Below, piece by piece: positions 31,704 through 37,817 of a DNA stretch of 38,226 bases. The notes beneath the pieces are model-generated. The model searched no databases and had not been told where the DNA came from. It saw only the letters and a list, made by a program, of their open reading frames with translations. Each line of letters begins with the position of its first letter. Position 1 is the first letter of the stretch. This DNA is from an uncultured Ectothiorhodospiraceae bacterium (GTDB lineage Bacteria > Pseudomonadota > Gammaproteobacteria > UBA6429 > Thiohalophilaceae): NCBI GenBank assembly GCA_947260005.1, contig CAMYOL010000050.1, positions 1-38,226 of the forward strand, in the 5' to 3' direction. Position numbers and translations under genes: made by a program.

Positions 31704-34025
31704 ATGCATAAACATCCCAAACCAACAAGAAGGATTGCACGTAAGTTAATTTTTTATTTAGTATCAGCAAGTGCGCTGATTACTCTTTTTATTACTTTTT
31801 TCCAACTTTATCTGGACTACAATCGAGATATCACGTCTATTGATAATCGTTTTCAACAAATTCAAAAAGTTAATCTGGATTTGATTTCTCATGCGCTTTG
31901 GGAAACGGATAATCATGAACTAAATTTACAACTTCAAGGCATGATTCAGATGCCAGATATGCAGTACCTGGCGATTAGTGAAAACGGTAAAGTGATGGTT
32001 GCTGTTGGGGGAAAAAAATCAACAAATATAATTTCTAAATCTTACCCACTATTATATAAGCATCGTGGGGTTACCCAAAAAATCGGAAGCCTGGAAGTAG
32101 TGGCGACTTTAGACGATGTTTATCAACGATTAATCGACAAGGTATGGATTATTCTAATTTCTAATGCAATTAAGACCTTTATTGTCGCCGGTTTTTTACT
32201 TTTTATCTTTCAGCGGTTGGTTACCCGACATATAAATGATCTTGCCCAACAGGTCGCTGCTGCCGATGTTGATAATTTATCTTCTCCGCTTATATTAAAG
32301 CGAGGTAGAACCAGATCAGATCGTCATGATGAATTTGATATCTTGATTAATGCTTTCGAAGTTATGCGTCATAAAATTTCTGAATCAGTTGCCCGAATTC
32401 AACGGCGCGAAGAAAACTTACGCCTATATGAAATGATTATGGCTACGACCACGGATTTAATGTCTTACGTAGATTTAGATTACAGTTATCGAGCAGTAAA
32501 TGAAGCGTACCTGAAATTTTATAATAAATCGCGTGAAGAAATTATAGGAAAACATATTAGCTTGTTGTTAAGTGAATCATATTTTGAACAACAGGTAAAA
32601 CCGAATCTGGATAAGACATTTTCTGGGCGACATATATCATACATTTCAAAAATTTTTAAGCTTAATGGAACCGATATCGACATTGAGGTGAATTTATATC
32701 CTTATTATGGTGATAAGGTTTCTGTTCAGGGGGCAGTTGTGAACGTGCGTGATATCACGCAAAGATTACAGGCCGAGAAGGATAAATTGCGAAACGTGCA
32801 AGTATATCAAGCACTCGCGCAGCATGGTTCAATGCGTTTTAGTCAATTCTTACTGAGCAGTTTAAATTTACTACAAGATGTATTCCAGGCAAGGATCGCC
32901 TTTGTTGGTCGTTTGGTAGCGGATACTACTAGTATTAAAACTGAATGCATGCTCGACAGAACGACGGTGATGGCGACACTCGAATATGAAATAAAGGGCA
33001 CCCCGTGTGAAACAGTGCAAGAGAAACGTCAATGTCTTGTCTATGAGGCAGCGACCAGTCAATACCCTGAGGATCCATTTCTTGCTGAGTCTAAAATCGA
33101 AGCCTATTTTGGTGTGCCCTTAATTGACACCAACAATAACATGATGGGTATCCTTGCCGTTATGGACACAAAACCTCACGAGAAAGAGGAATGGCATACT
33201 GATACCCTAAATGTGTTTGCAGCACGCATTGCAATAGAGATGGAACGCGCTGATGCGTTGGAGAAACTTGAAAATTATAATGAAGAGCTTGAAAAGCAGG
33301 TTTACACACGAACGATTGATCTTCAGGAATCTGTAAACGAGCTCGAGTCATTTAGTTATTCAGTTTCTCATGATCTGCGAACGCCATTACGGGCCATTAA
33401 TGGCTATTCACAAATCTTAATGGAAGATAACTTGAAGGATCTGGATGAAGCCGGTGCTGGCCACTTACAAAAAATTCATGCTGCGAGTATGAGGATGGGA
33501 GAATTAATCGATAGTTTATTAAAACTATCGCGCATCACTCGCCAAACATTAGAGCTCTCAAATATTAATTTAAGCAAGGTAGCAAGAGAACAATTAGACC
33601 AACATTCTCAAGATGAAATGACAAGAGTAATAATAAATATTGAAGATGATATTCATTGCTATTGCGATTTGGGGCTAATAAAAGTTGCTTTGGGCAATTT
33701 ATTGGATAATGCGATTAAATATTCAGCAAAGGAATATAAACCAGAAATAGAAGTAGGCTCACTTATTAAAGATGGTGAGATGGTTTATTTTATCAGAGAT
33801 AACGGGATAGGATTTGATCATCGTTATGCACATAAATTATTTTCTCCTTTTCAACGTTTGCATGCTGATTCTGATTTCCAGGGGATGGGGATTGGTCTGG
33901 CTACCGTACAACGAATCTTTCATCGCCATGGTGGTAAGGTCTGGGCTGAATCGACACCGGGAGAAGGGGCGACGTTTTATTTTACAATTGGATCACACAA
34001 AAACTCGGCATCAGCAGTGGCCTAA
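31704..34025 (+). CDS. hybrid-architecture sensor histidine kinase (periplasmic sensor, PAS, GAF, HisKA, HATPase)
   Basis: 773 residues. TM1 about 15-35, a periplasmic sensor about 37-145 with the W-E-x-D pattern (ALWETDNHELNLQL) seen in Cache-like LapD-type sensors, TM2 about 147-168 and a HAMP-like linker. Then come PAS (243-355), GAF (about 372-518) and a coiled coil. HisKA of the bacteriophytochrome class has His556 in YSVSHDLRTPLRAINGY, and the HATPase has LLDNAIKYS, DNGIGFD and GMGIGLATV. All kinase motifs are intact. No Cys for a bilin is expected in this GAF. The gene follows the solute-binding-like gene and converges with the receiver gene at 34027. Confidence 0.93.
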   Translation: MHKHPKPTRRIARKLIFYLVSASALITLFITFFQLYLDYNRDITSIDNRFQQIQKVNLDLISHALWETDNHELNLQLQGMIQMPDMQYLAISENGKVMVAVGGKKSTNIISKSYPLLYKHRGVTQKIGSLEVVATLDDVYQRLIDKVWIILISNAIKTFIVAGFLLFIFQRLVTRHINDLAQQVAAADVDNLSSPLILKRGRTRSDRHDEFDILINAFEVMRHKISESVARIQRREENLRLYEMIMATTTDLMSYVDLDYSYRAVNEAYLKFYNKSREEIIGKHISLLLSESYFEQQVKPNLDKTFSGRHISYISKIFKLNGTDIDIEVNLYPYYGDKVSVQGAVVNVRDITQRLQAEKDKLRNVQVYQALAQHGSMRFSQFLLSSLNLLQDVFQARIAFVGRLVADTTSIKTECMLDRTTVMATLEYEIKGTPCETVQEKRQCLVYEAATSQYPEDPFLAESKIEAYFGVPLIDTNNNMMGILAVMDTKPHEKEEWHTDTLNVFAARIAIEMERADALEKLENYNEELEKQVYTRTIDLQESVNELESFSYSVSHDLRTPLRAINGYSQILMEDNLKDLDEAGAGHLQKIHAASMRMGELIDSLLKLSRITRQTLELSNINLSKVAREQLDQHSQDEMTRVIINIEDDIHCYCDLGLIKVALGNLLDNAIKYSAKEYKPEIEVGSLIKDGEMVYFIRDNGIGFDHRYAHKLFSPFQRLHADSDFQGMGIGLATVQRIFHRHGGKVWAESTPGEGATFYFTIGSHKNSASAVA

Positions 34026-34026
34026 C

Positions 34027-34725
34027 TCATTTGGGCGGTGGCATATTGGTATTTAACCAGTATTCTCCAAGTGATTTTAAGGTATTACAAAAAATGGAGT
34101 AGTCAACTGGTTTGCGTACATAGCTGTTAACTCCATACTCATATCCTCGCTGAATATCGATACGTTCATCAGAGGTCGTTAATAAGACGGTGGGGATTTG
34201 GTTGGTTAACTCAGAGGCGCGAATTTCTTTTAAGACGCTCAATCCATTGACCTTGGGTAAATTAATATCGAGCAATATTAGTTGTGGTAACTCGTTTATA
34301 TTTCTTGAAGCGTATTTTCCTTTTGCGAAAAGAAAGTCGAGAGCTTCCTGGCCATCCCGACAGACGGTAATATCAAAATCGGCTTCCAGTCTTTGAATTG
34401 CGCGAAAGGTTAATTCAATATCGCTGGTGTTGTCTTCGACTAACAGGACAATCGGCGCCTGCAAACTCGTTGTTGATTCAGTACCCTGTAATTTATGTAG
34501 CTGAACCGTTATTTTTTCAAAACCAATATCACGACACCAGGTTAGCGCGGTGTCAGAGGTTTTGAAAATCCTGGGCTTGCCACGCTTGAGAGTGAGTATC
34601 TGTATATCACCATTTTCAGCCTCATTAAGTTCAATTAACCAACCCCCTTCCGTGGTGGCATAACGAACCGTGGCCCCACTCCAGTGGCCGGCCGTAAACA
34701 GTAGCTTGACGTCGCGCTCATTCAT
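34027..34725 (-). CDS. receiver protein with novel N-terminal domain (Rcp1-like REC)
   Basis: 232 residues. The C-terminal receiver (about 90-228) has Glu97/Asp98, phosphoacceptor Asp153 in LLDINLPKVNG, a Thr in VLLTTS and Lys in VRKPVD. Its end (LGEYWLNTN) matches the Rcp1 family that partners phytochrome-type kinases, so the convergent kinase is the probable donor. The first 76 residues form a separate domain (MNERDVKLLF … PRIFKTSDTAL … IGF) with no output-domain motif I know. The stand-alone protein at 34871-35101 is a paralogue: 24 of 76 residues identical in an ungapped alignment. The domain resembles, loosely and from memory, short plasmid partition-associated (ParC-like) proteins. Confidence 0.85.
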   Translation of the reverse strand: MNERDVKLLFTAGHWSGATVRYATTEGGWLIELNEAENGDIQILTLKRGKPRIFKTSDTALTWCRDIGFEKITVQLHKLQGTESTTSLQAPIVLLVEDNTSDIELTFRAIQRLEADFDITVCRDGQEALDFLFAKGKYASRNINELPQLILLDINLPKVNGLSVLKEIRASELTNQIPTVLLTTSDERIDIQRGYEYGVNSYVRKPVDYSIFCNTLKSLGEYWLNTNMPPPK

Positions 34726-34870
34726 TTGAACTTCATCTTACCCATTGCATGAATCTCCAATATACCCAAATACTAAATTATGGGGAAGTTTATTTAATGG
34801 TAAAATGAAAGTTTAATTTTACGGCTATGGTATTTGTAAGCTTGAGGTAGAGGTGAATATAGACCTGGAC

Positions 34871-35101
34871 TTAAAGCTTTACTTCGACCTGATTGAAACC
34901 AATACGCACACAACAGCGAAGTGCAGCGTCCGTTGTTTTAAACAGACGAGGGTCGTTAGAACGCTTTGACCTGAGAAACTGGTGATTCTCATTTGTGTCG
35001 ACCACCATAATCGTCCAGCCGCTACTGTTCGCGGTAGGTTCAACAATGACCGTCTTAAGGTCGTTTGACTCAAATAGTAATCTGGCTTCCCGTTCCTGCA
35101 T
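34871..35101 (-). CDS. stand-alone 76-residue paralogue of the receiver's N-terminal domain
   Basis: Starts ATG, with AGGGG about eight bases upstream and AGGA adjacent. Ends in VKL, exactly where the homologous part of the receiver protein ends. Shared positions include MxER, LLF, GW, PR-FKT-D-AL, C-IGF and the final V-L (24/76 identities, no gaps). It lies 145 bases upstream of the receiver gene on the same strand, so the two could be co-transcribed. Function unknown; it may compete with or bind the fused copy. Confidence 0.72.
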   Translation of the reverse strand: MQEREARLLFESNDLKTVIVEPTANSSGWTIMVVDTNENHQFLRSKRSNDPRLFKTTDAALRCCVRIGFNQVEVKL

Positions 35102-35338
35102 TCCTGGGGCCCCTATAATAGTGAAATGGGATAAGTAAAATATAAATGAAATTCATAAAATTGAAAGTAAAAATTGTGAATTTTTTAATATTTGTGTGGG
35201 TTGAACCTTCAGGGCTTTAAAATTTACTGAAGAATCAAGTATTTGTTTCAGGAATGAGGAAGGAAGTAGGTTTTGTTAAAGATCGTCAACTCAGATGAAT
35301 ATAGAGCCCTTGTCGCGTATATTTTGTAGGTAAGGGAA

Positions 35339-35356
35339 CACCTGATTTCTCAGGTG
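35339..35356 (+). other. hairpin next to the ribosome-binding site of the following gene
   Basis: CACCTGA / TCAGGTG forms a perfect 7-bp stem with a TTTC loop, ending just before the AAGGGA site at 35358. AAGGGAAC is repeated directly on both sides (35332-35339 and 35358-35365). Confidence 0.5.
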
Positions 35357-35371
35357 CAAGGGAACTGTTAC

Positions 35372-35845
35372 ATGCACGTATATTCGAAAAAAAAGTTATC
35401 GCCGGCACATAGCAAACGCGTTTATCTGGTGGACAATAATCCAGATAATATCGCTGTTACGCGTCGATCATTTGCCATGGATGGAGTGTCTGTTCATCTT
35501 GAGGCCTTTCAGACAATCGATGCACTCGTGCGTCTTTTTAACGATGAAAATAAATTTAATTACCCCGATCTTGTTTTAATCGACTCTAATCTGCCTGATG
35601 ATGGAAGTTTTAAATTAGTAGCCTGGATCCGTCGCCATCCAATTTTATTACTGACACCTATCGTTGTTGTCGGCCATGGTCAATCCGAAAGTGAGGTGGT
35701 TCGCAGCTATGAATTAGGAGCAAGTAGTTACATACAAAAGTCGGTTGATTTTACCGAATACTCTATCCAGTTAAAGGAAGTGTGTTCTTACTGGCTTGAT
35801 TTAAATGTGCTTCCTGCCCATAACCAGTTTAGTAAATCTGCTTAG
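35372..35845 (+). CDS. degenerate receiver-domain protein (Rcp1-like)
   Basis: 157 residues from ATG 35372, with AAGGGA about eight bases upstream; a GTG 18 bases earlier lies inside the hairpin and is less likely. Stand-alone REC fold. The phosphoacceptor Asp is present (LVLIDSNLPDDG), but the usual acidic pair is Asp-Asn (YLVDNNPDN). The switch Thr/Ser is replaced by Gly (VVVGHGQ), and Lys is followed by Ser instead of Pro (QKSVD). It is probably a poorly or non-phosphorylated receiver. The C-terminus (VCSYWLDLN) shows it belongs with the Rcp1-type receiver at 34027. Confidence 0.82.
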   Translation: MHVYSKKKLSPAHSKRVYLVDNNPDNIAVTRRSFAMDGVSVHLEAFQTIDALVRLFNDENKFNYPDLVLIDSNLPDDGSFKLVAWIRRHPILLLTPIVVVGHGQSESEVVRSYELGASSYIQKSVDFTEYSIQLKEVCSYWLDLNVLPAHNQFSKSA

Positions 35846-36098: not shown

Positions 36099-37817
36099 AT
36101 GATAAACCAGTATTTGAATGTCCTTATTGTCGAGGATTCTGAAGACGATACATTTTTGCTTGAGCGAGAATTAAAACGGGGTGGTTTTGTTCCTTCTGTT
36201 ACGAGAGTGGTCAAAGAAAAAGATCTTGCCGTTGCATTAAGGGATCCGAACTGGGATATTGTTATTTCAGACCATAATATCCCCGGACTCTCTTCTGGAG
36301 TTGTATTGGAGTTAGTACAGGCTTCAGGTCTGGATGTCCCTTTTATTATTGTCTCAGGCAGCATTGGTGAGGATATAGCCGTCTCTGCGATGCGCACCGG
36401 AGCGCACGATTATATAATGAAAGATAATCTGGTTCGCCTGGTTCCGGCCATTACTCGCGAGCTGCGTGAGGCTGAGACCCGGCGTGCACATAAAAAGGCG
36501 CAAGAGGTGATCCATCATCTTGCCTACCATGATTCTTTAACAGGACTAAGTAACCGCCATGTTATCGAGGATCGTATTAATCAATTGCTTGCTGATATCT
36601 CACAGGATCAACCCTCTCATATCTTGTTATATATTGATCTCGACCAGTTTAAAATTATTAACGATACCAGTGGTCATATCGCAGGTGATGAACTGTTAAA
36701 ACAACTGGCTCGTATGTTAAAAGGTCTTATTCGAACCGACGATGTTTTATCTCGGCTCGGTGGCGATGAGTTTGGCGTTTTGTTGAGAAGTTGTGGCATC
36801 AAACAAGCCGAGTCGATTGCAAAAAATATCCTCGCCGTTATTCAGGATTTTAAATTTGTCTGGGATACAAAAACGTTTACGGTTGGTGCCAGCATTGGTT
36901 TAGTCGAGTTTACCGGGTACATGTACAAGGACATGGCTTCGGTATTAAGTGCTGCGGATATGGCCTGTTATGCGGCAAAAGATCTGGGTCGTAATCGCAT
37001 CCACATTTATTCTGAGGAAGAGGTGAACATCCTGCGACGTCAGGGTGAGATGCTTTGGGTCTCAACCATCAACGATGCCCTGGAAAAAAATCGCTTTTGT
37101 CTTTATCAACAAAAAATAGCCTCTTTAGCATCGACCGATGATGAGGATTATCAAATAGAGTTTTTAGTCCGCATGCTCGACCATGCTGGTGAGCTAATCT
37201 TGCCAGGTGCATTTATACCGGCAGCAGAGCGATATAATCTAATGAATCAAATAGATTGCTGGGTGATTAAAAATGCATTTGCTGCATTCATAGGAATGCA
37301 GGAGTTGACTGATTCTCCAGGCATGGCGTTTATAAATTTATCCGGTGTTTCATTATGCGATGAAAACACCCTGGCGGTTATTAAGCACGAACTAGAGAAC
37401 ACTTCGATAAAACCTGAGCAGATTTGTTTTGAAGTGACTGAAACAGCGGCGATTGCTAATTTATCATCGGCCGTGACATTTATTGATGAGCTAAAGCAAC
37501 TTGGTTTTCAATTTGCGCTGGATGATTTTGGTGTTGGACTAAGCTCATTCTCTTATTTGAAGTCCTTACCCGTCGACTATCTCAAGGTTGACGGCGGTTT
37601 TATTCGCGACATGTTGAGTGATCCAATGGATGCAGCCATTGTTGAATCAATTAATAAGATAGGTCATGTTGCGGGTTTAAAAACCATTGCTGAGTTTGTT
37701 GAAAGCGAAGCCATCAATATTCGCCTCAAAGAGCTTGGTTTTGATTTAGCTCAGGGTTATGCCATTCACATACCTGAAGAAGCTATCTCACCCACCAATA
37801 CTTGTGTTTTGGCCTAA
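36099..37817 (+). CDS. REC-GGDEF-EAL response regulator
   Basis: 572 residues, no membrane segments. Receiver (1-120) with Glu12/Asp13 and phosphoacceptor Asp58 (VISDHNIPG). GGDEF domain (about 140-305): SRLGGDEF with GGDEF at 221-225 and the RxxD inhibition site RTDD (212-215). The EAL domain (about 318-560) has EFL instead of EAL (354-356), keeping the catalytic Glu. It also has EVTETA, DDFGVGLSS, KVDGGFIRDM and AEFVES. EFL variants can be active. The protein could receive phosphate from the kinase at 31704 and turn the signal into a c-di-GMP change. The N-terminal MINQYLNVLIVEDSEDD has only weak Shine-Dalgarno bases before it. Confidence 0.92.
   Translation: MINQYLNVLIVEDSEDDTFLLERELKRGGFVPSVTRVVKEKDLAVALRDPNWDIVISDHNIPGLSSGVVLELVQASGLDVPFIIVSGSIGEDIAVSAMRTGAHDYIMKDNLVRLVPAITRELREAETRRAHKKAQEVIHHLAYHDSLTGLSNRHVIEDRINQLLADISQDQPSHILLYIDLDQFKIINDTSGHIAGDELLKQLARMLKGLIRTDDVLSRLGGDEFGVLLRSCGIKQAESIAKNILAVIQDFKFVWDTKTFTVGASIGLVEFTGYMYKDMASVLSAADMACYAAKDLGRNRIHIYSEEEVNILRRQGEMLWVSTINDALEKNRFCLYQQKIASLASTDDEDYQIEFLVRMLDHAGELILPGAFIPAAERYNLMNQIDCWVIKNAFAAFIGMQELTDSPGMAFINLSGVSLCDENTLAVIKHELENTSIKPEQICFEVTETAAIANLSSAVTFIDELKQLGFQFALDDFGVGLSSFSYLKSLPVDYLKVDGGFIRDMLSDPMDAAIVESINKIGHVAGLKTIAEFVESEAINIRLKELGFDLAQGYAIHIPEEAISPTNTCVLA

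Follow-up and report, generated by a model that had tools for sequence, protein, structure and literature searches.

A 76-residue domain related to plasmid RepB-like and ParC-like proteins, found free and fused to a receiver in Gammaproteobacteria, and the palindromic box of its locus

Why should a small domain occur twice in a row on a bacterial chromosome, once in front of a receiver and once as a protein of its own, and what could such a pair do? The question is raised by two adjacent genes in a 38,226-nucleotide stretch of DNA from an uncultured Ectothiorhodospiraceae bacterium, the whole of which is called the window in what follows. An earlier note, made from the sequence alone, had described the two genes and suggested that phosphorylation would control the formation of homo- or hetero-oligomers.

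Two paralogous domains, one free and one fused

The fused gene (34027..34725, minus strand), delineated by its reading frame, Pfam search and pairwise alignment, codes for a protein of 232 amino acids in which a 76-residue domain (residues 1-76; 34498..34725, minus strand; delimited by alignment and profile comparison) is followed by a linker and a C-terminal Rcp1-like receiver. The free gene (34871..35101, minus strand), supported by alignment, conservation and dN/dS, codes for a 76-residue paralogue of this domain. Both frames had been placed at these coordinates by the earlier note, whose gapless alignment with 24 identities was reproduced on recount (24/76); when two one-residue gaps are allowed, the full-length alignment contains 29 identical positions out of 77 (38%), with an E value of 6e-16. 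This value and the conservation in relatives rule out a chance likeness and, as judged from the alignment, residues 1-76 of the fused protein and the free 76-residue protein are paralogues.

Concerning the receiver, residues 93-210 of the fused protein match PF00072 with an E value of 4.1e-17 and 62.8 bits, above the curated cut-off of 30.2. Its canonical, presumably phosphorylatable character, as first described, agrees with E97 and D98, the acceptor D153, a Thr/Ser at position 183 and K205, all of them present in the nine aligned fused proteins of the window's family (9/9, read off the alignment). For residues 1-76, a Pfam profile search returned no match up to an E value of 10, which excludes a known Pfam output domain at this position and agrees with the earlier view of the domain as unclassified.

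Between the window and genome G031, the free gene has a dN of 0.05 and a dS of 1.3, and among genomes G000, G030, G031 and G032 the free and fused domains have dN values of 0.05-0.23 with dS above 1. These substitution rates show both domains to be under purifying selection. Also, the start position of the free gene is kept despite a GTG start codon in G029, G346 and G783 or a TTG in G791. The small frame, found across families with a low dN/dS and a fixed start position, is conserved in relatives, as the initial reading of the pair implied, and a spurious frame is ruled out by this conservation and by dN/dS.

Other proteins with this domain N-terminal to a receiver do exist: the fused form was found in 14 genomes belonging to four families, and in 14 out of 14 the free form lies directly upstream on the same strand, at a distance of 32-269 bp. 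None of these 14 genomes has the fused form without the free one. Within the window's order (40 genomes, one family), ten genomes gave a match at E ≤ 0.1, nine of which carry both forms; the tenth, G001 (E 0.05, a small frame beside a DNA methyltransferase-like gene), was too weak and was dropped. In a class-wide sample of 369 genomes, with at most 15 candidates scored per genome, seven had a match at E ≤ 0.01: the pair was present in the window's own genome, G323 and G346, the free form alone in G091, and the remaining three gave weak single-domain matches. Pairs were thereafter counted in one of the three genomes of the order of G323 and in three of the 20 genomes searched in the group of G346 (G346, G783 and G791). 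Three of the 13 genomes searched in a further group matched as well, G803 with the pair and G091 and G802 with the free form alone, the latter being the two genomes with a free form and no fused one. As for the 58 related-receiver loci that were fetched, only two, L001 and L002, contain the domain, and both come from the window's genus.

In G803, G091 and G802 (loci L087, L124 and L125), the free gene is flanked by pyrG and a MORN-repeat gene, as read by eye, and these common surroundings suggest that in their family the fused gene comes and goes while the free gene stays. The site between pyrG and the MORN-repeat gene is thus a natural case of gain or loss of the fused gene.

A tree of 35 domain rows placed the 16 free domains on one side of a branch with supports of 89/92 and the 14 fused domains on another with supports of 81/80, these values being only moderate because the domain is short; some long branches were flagged. 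The simplest reading of this tree is that one duplication and one fusion took place before the four families split.

No relative of the domain came out of a scan of viral contigs. Among phage records, 143 match the whole fused protein at E values up to 1, and two of them seemed to cover residues 10-229 and 16-208; these two, the ones examined, contain no domain at E 1 and are therefore receiver or kinase matches. A viral or phage origin of the domain was rejected on these grounds.

Relatives of the domain on plasmids and its predicted fold

Searched by tblastn against plasmids at E values up to 1, the free protein matched 187 records and the fused one 148, most of which are from Aeromonas (147 and 106, respectively), and many of the plasmid matches among those listed are annotated as "plasmid replication protein RepB". 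A profile built from 18 domain rows and run against a small set recovered three plasmid proteins at E values of 4e-15 to 5e-12 and four more at 3e-7 to 0.004. In profile-profile comparisons with hhalign, the domain aligned to six plasmid "RepB"-type rows with a probability of 99.4% (E 2.4e-21, 77 columns) and to seven ParC-like rows, themselves below the cut-off of the ParC family NF041544, with 97.1% (E 5.8e-11, 69 columns). The real scores were 106 and 57, vs. maxima of 17.2 (plasmid) and 18.4 (ParC) in 200 column shuffles each.

The plasmid RepB-like proteins of Aeromonas, Moritella, Pseudomonas and Klebsiella, called either "plasmid replication protein RepB" or hypothetical, are about 80 residues long and, judged by profile comparison, share the domain over its whole length. 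Several of their genes lie near replication, partition or mobilisation genes, and in the examined records none carries a receiver fusion. No paper on the function of these small proteins was found in the open-licence literature, and their role in replication is a matter of annotation.

The likeness to ParC proposed in the earlier note held at the level of the profile comparison given above and fell far short of the curated ParC family: against NF041544, the fused protein scores 17.8 bits and the free one 11.9, for a cut-off of 95. Nine of the 18 domain rows match ParC at E ≤ 0.5 (best 8.9e-5) and five match CV_2116 (best 6.2e-4). The homology to ParC is thus distant, with a common G-W and R-x-F-K/R motif. 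A third copy of the domain in G323 (L086, 1435-1725, minus strand) reaches 61 bits against the same ParC cut-off of 95 and thereby links the plasmid-type and ParC-type groups. No parA or parB gene was seen beside the pair, the neighbours of which are a kinase, a receiver, a REC-GGDEF-EAL gene and tyrS.

Two named ParC proteins were considered and set aside. Identity with the ParC of the Myxococcus plasmid pMF1 is excluded, since the latter is about 80% helical according to the parts of its description that were available (PMC7843461). The ParC of NAH7 was not retained as a functional guide: in the accessible portion of the source, its function is called unknown and its deletion is reported to have no marked effect on plasmid stability (PMC12421886). 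A weaker profile match links the domain to CV_2116 (PDB 2KON), a prophage protein of Chromobacterium violaceum made of strands followed by a helix, which sits among phage tail genes and is described as a monomer in the sections available (PMC3397530). The free protein scores 12.6 bits against the corresponding family NF046097, for a cut-off of 58, and the fused domain was not among the matches listed.

Two further ParC-type proteins, L109 1285-1752 (minus strand) and L107, were noticed for a C-terminal extension of about 70 residues without Pfam match near the cut-off; this extension resembles an antitoxin tail.

The AlphaFold2 model of the fused domain, built from six rows (pLDDT 72, pTM 0.62, residues 1-9 under 50), predicts strands at 15-23, 28-35 and 41-47 (the last one broken), a helix at 57-67 and a strand at 72-75; the free domain gave a similar model with low confidence (pLDDT 56). 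A fold search of solved structures with this model of modest confidence gave no match at E ≤ 0.001, and no DNA-binding fold was matched with confidence. The best structural neighbour, a chain of respiratory complex I (Z 5.6, rmsd 4.0 over 63 residues), may reflect only a common arrangement of elements. 2KON is absent from the best 50 structural matches listed in either search, the confidence of the model being modest.

This outcome bears on another explanation, in which the domain would be an oligomerisation module devoid of DNA binding and the free protein would be a partner of the fused one, phosphorylation opening or closing the hetero-oligomer. We regard it as unlikely. The listed structural neighbours, which are not DNA-binding domains, are in its favour, though all the matches are weak; so are the co-occurrence of free and fused forms in 14 out of 14 genomes and the shortness of the closest solved receivers, RcpA, RcpB and Rcp1 (140-149 residues), which have no DNA-binding output. 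Any palindromes near the genes would then belong to an unlinked transcription factor, and it is the palindromes described below that speak against it.

The palindromic boxes and what may bind them

A comparison of promoters revealed a 20-bp palindromic box, CCCA-N12-TGGG, before the fused gene (34765..34784), directly followed by a -10-like TATATT (34759..34764, minus strand), which was recognised by eye and is only consensus-like. The same comparison revealed two such boxes in tandem, with a period of 22 bp, over the start of the free gene: on the gene's strand, box 1 (35111..35130) reads CCCA-N12-AGGG and extends from -29 to -10, and box 2 (35089..35108) reads CCCA-N12-CGGG and extends from -7 to +13, into codons 1-5. 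The general form is therefore CCC-N14-GGG with a common CCCA left arm. This common box had escaped the earlier note; it suggests DNA binding and autoregulation.

In a region from 120 bp upstream to 15 bp inside each gene, CCC and GGG with a span of exactly 20 were present in 14 of the 16 free genes and 10 of the 14 fused genes; the other spans from 8 to 40 occurred in at most three genes each, except 21 (6 free and 5 fused genes), the counts of which are due to runs of C or G. With CCCA as left arm, the span of 20 was found in 13/16 free and 8/14 fused genes, and in none of 29 control promoters of five neighbouring genes was the span-20 pair present. The boxes of the fused genes start at -54 to -87 and, in eight cases out of ten, are followed at once or one base further on by TATATT or TATAGT. 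In a promoter scan, the TATATT after the fused-gene box was absent from the output and a single promoter-like site was reported near the pair, fewer than in shuffles.

Dinucleotide-keeping shuffles were used for spans 15-21 in a region ending at the start codon, so that box 2 fell outside: the fused genes gave 10/14, vs. a mean of 0.96 and a maximum of 4, and the free genes, without box 2, gave 9/16, vs. a mean of 1.8 and a maximum of 8. The full CCCA..TGGG form (spans 17-21) was found in 8/14 fused genes, for 0.15 expected, and in 0/16 free genes, where the right arm is AGGG or CGGG. When six of the seven outer pairs were required at span 20, the fused genes displayed a twofold excess (11 sites vs. 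5.2 expected) and the free genes no excess (6 vs. 5.1), which indicates that the symmetry extends over no more than three or four bases per arm.

Where box 2 overlaps codon 4 of the free gene, CGG encodes the arginine in 14/15 free genes. The corresponding counts are 3/12 for the fused genes and 29/159 for the other arginine codons of the domains; the p-values derived from these counts are too small, as related genes were treated as independent. This bias suggests that the DNA sequence itself is constrained there.

Across the window's genome, the exact box with A/T beside its arms occurs at 11 sites, vs. eight for a reversed control; a genome-wide regulon was dropped for lack of a clear excess, an outcome that suggests a regulator encoded at the locus itself. 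A few of the ten other exact boxes in this genome lie upstream of reading frames, two of them, in L127 and L132, at 54 and 73 bp from frames judged by eye to be peroxiredoxin-like and DNA-glycosylase-like. The tandem pattern, allowing at most one mismatch, matches the free gene in eight of the nine pair genomes of the order, with seven further matches in six other genomes, for six matches in all with the control. The absence from control promoters, the tandem matches at the free gene and the lack of a genome-wide excess together indicate, as far as base sequences can tell, that the box is tied to the locus.

There are exceptions. G039 lacks a box before the fused gene and has only a weak one at the free gene; there the two genes, only 32 bp apart, may share a promoter. 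Boxes are also poor in the two free-only genomes, G091 and G802. Before the start of the ParC-type gene of L086 (G323), a CCCA-N12-TGGA was noticed by eye (CCCAAATTGTCTATTTTGGA, then a -10-like TACACT). No description of an operator of this kind was found in the open-licence literature.

Tandem palindromes were also found at the gene start of the plasmid relatives, with another sequence: 8 out of 13 have 19-bp palindromes with a 21-bp period, the other five regions scoring at chance. On a grid of 98 length/period combinations, from which G036 and G783 (near copies of G033 and G346) and plasmids p76 and pAH06 were left out, the 14 chromosomal free genes peaked at 20/22 with a z of 6.5 for three-base arms, and only narrowly for four-base arms (z 3.9, vs. 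3.7 at 22/22). The 13 plasmid genes peaked at 19/21, with a z of 5.8 for six-base arms and 5.1 for four-base arms, the runner-up 17/21 corresponding to the same palindromes one base in. The arm lengths of three, four and six were chosen by the analyst, and each z comes from 40 shuffles. In 15 plasmid promoters, perfect seven-pair dyads were in excess at spans 19-22 (two to five promoters each, 0.1-0.2 expected), with a mild excess at spans 16-17 and 24. Palindromes of the Aeromonas group have ATCAAA/TTTGAT as arms, vs. CCCA/TGGG on the chromosome, and two related Pseudomonas plasmids have a single 22-bp palindrome instead of a tandem.

That relatives on unrelated replicons have palindromes of nearly equal size and layout, with another sequence, would not be explained by a single host regulator; together with the attachment of the boxes to these two genes, this argues against the oligomerisation module introduced above, even if an unlinked regulator could bind the boxes. 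The locus-bound box and the analogous plasmid layout are best explained by a domain that would bind the palindrome as a dimer and regulate its own gene. Against this explanation stand the short symmetry of the box, the narrow grid peak of the free genes with four-base arms, the predicted fold without a confident DNA-binding match, the missing or weak boxes of G039 and the poor ones of the free-only genomes, the difference between plasmid and chromosomal boxes, the five plasmid regions at chance level, and a kinase that is not conserved at the locus.

A control at the RNA level was also considered, with the box that spans the start of the free gene acting as a translational element and the domain binding RNA. 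Boxes 1 and 2 of the free gene do contain the Shine-Dalgarno-like GGG and the start codon, which would fit. This possibility nevertheless appears very improbable: the box of the fused genes precedes a -10-like hexamer in 8/10 cases, and so lies outside the likely transcript, and a protein dimer on DNA accounts better than a short, long-looped hairpin for a span that is constant at 20 bp around a variable interior.

We therefore favour, with confidence that is real and no more than middling, a reading in which the domain would be a sequence-specific DNA-binder of the plasmid RepB-like/ParC-like kind, the free copy being autoregulatory and the fused copy serving as the N-terminal output of a response regulator. 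The domain would have settled on the chromosome and been duplicated once, one copy being joined to the front of an Rcp1-like receiver. As a dimer, the free protein would bind the two tandem 20-bp boxes (CCCA-N12-NGGG) over its own start and repress its own gene. The fused protein, a putative response regulator with an N-terminal output domain, would recognise the same kind of box and act on the CCCA-N12-TGGG before its own -10 region, either by itself or in a mixed dimer formed with the free protein. Once phosphorylated by a histidine kinase, the receiver would alter the state of the dimer, hence its hold on the boxes, thereby coupling a signal to the amounts of both proteins and of any further target. 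The homology, the pairing, the old duplication, the purifying selection and the boxes with their spacing emerge from the comparisons reported here; DNA binding by the domain, repression, mixed dimers, control by phosphorylation and the part of the kinase are what we infer from them. The two genes together probably form a switch that reads DNA and controls itself.

The roles could be divided differently, the free protein being the only DNA-binding repressor and the fused one a phospho-controlled antagonist, either a decoy or an anti-repressor, which would form non-binding mixed dimers. The tandem operator belongs to the free form, the fused form was never seen without the free one in 14 genomes, and in G091 and G802 the free gene stands without the fused one at the very place where G803 has both, all of which would suit such a scheme. 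The boxes are however poor in these free-only genomes, and most rows of the fused domain retain the core motif PR-FKT-D-A, so that no obvious binding surface has been lost; we consider this division of labour quite improbable.

The receiver, its possible kinase and the neighbouring genes

Known response regulators offer a partial parallel to the reading of the domain as a DNA-binding output. PhyR has an N-terminal output domain and a C-terminal receiver, the output being sigma-like. The fused protein resembles it in this order of domains and differs from it in the nature of the output, as its residues 1-76 have no Pfam match. The earlier note knew of no described receiver fusion with this domain; likewise, no description of one was found in the open-licence literature. 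We tentatively suggest, while thinking it could well be otherwise, that the fused protein represents a new class of response regulators, with a domesticated plasmid RepB/ParC-type DNA-binding output at its N-terminus and a free paralogue acting on tandem palindromes, and that the RepB-like/ParC-like superfamily of small plasmid proteins consists as a whole of autoregulatory DNA-binders with the same operator layout. If this is true, an unexplained family of plasmid proteins would gain a testable function and a predicted binding site, response regulators would gain a new output domain at an unusual end of the protein, and a plasmid maintenance regulator would have been placed under two-component control.

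Among solved receivers, the fused receiver is closest to RcpB (2e-25), RcpA (5e-24) and Rcp1 (1e-20), which it resembles in sequence, with a YWL..N tail in the fused receiver. Unlike the fused protein, these three are stand-alone receivers of 140-149 residues without DNA-binding output. Convergent with the fused gene, a histidine kinase gene (31704..34025, plus strand) was identified by domain search, its product having a CHASE5-PAS-GAF-HisKA-HATPase architecture in which the GAF match is weak and below the cut-off. Only the four genomes of the window's genus have such a convergent CHASE5-PAS kinase next to the fused gene; beyond it lies tyrS where the contig extends that far (G000 and G032), the contig of G031 ending inside the kinase. 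In G039, the free gene has a divergent neighbour that codes for a different kinase sharing this catalytic part, and in G323 the end of a matching kinase was found about 6 kb from the pair. In the stretches fetched from G033, G034, G036, G346, G783, G791 and G803, no kinase of this class was found; in G029, the contig edge lies 1.3 kb before the pair.

Elsewhere, a kinase of this catalytic type lies immediately before the receiver at 28 of the 41 related-receiver loci that were counted; these 41 remain of the 58 once the two pair loci and 15 matches that were weak or short are set aside. Given the Rcp1-like character of the receiver and this precedence, a kinase of this class is a reasonable conjecture, and not more, for the input of the fused receiver, as far as can be read from gene order and similarity. 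Of the link to bacteriophytochrome-type kinases that the earlier note proposed to look for, what survives is a catalytic part of the class found beside Rcp1-like receivers; the kinase itself is of the CHASE5-PAS type, not a bacteriophytochrome, and it stands beside the pair only in the window's genus, apart from the different one in G039.

On the other side of the pair, a divergent stand-alone Rcp1-like receiver (35354..35845, plus strand, likely start 35372) was recognised from its reading frame and by domain search. By eye, it looks degenerate, with an Asp-Asn acidic pair and a Gly in place of the Thr/Ser, the acceptor Asp and the Lys being kept; the corresponding receivers of G033, G034 and G036 appear canonical, also by eye. 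It is followed by a REC-GGDEF-EAL gene (36099..37817, plus strand; domain search). The REC-GGDEF-EAL and divergent receiver genes are kept beside the pair in G030, G031, G033, G034 and G036, an arrangement that hints at a connection with cyclic di-GMP.
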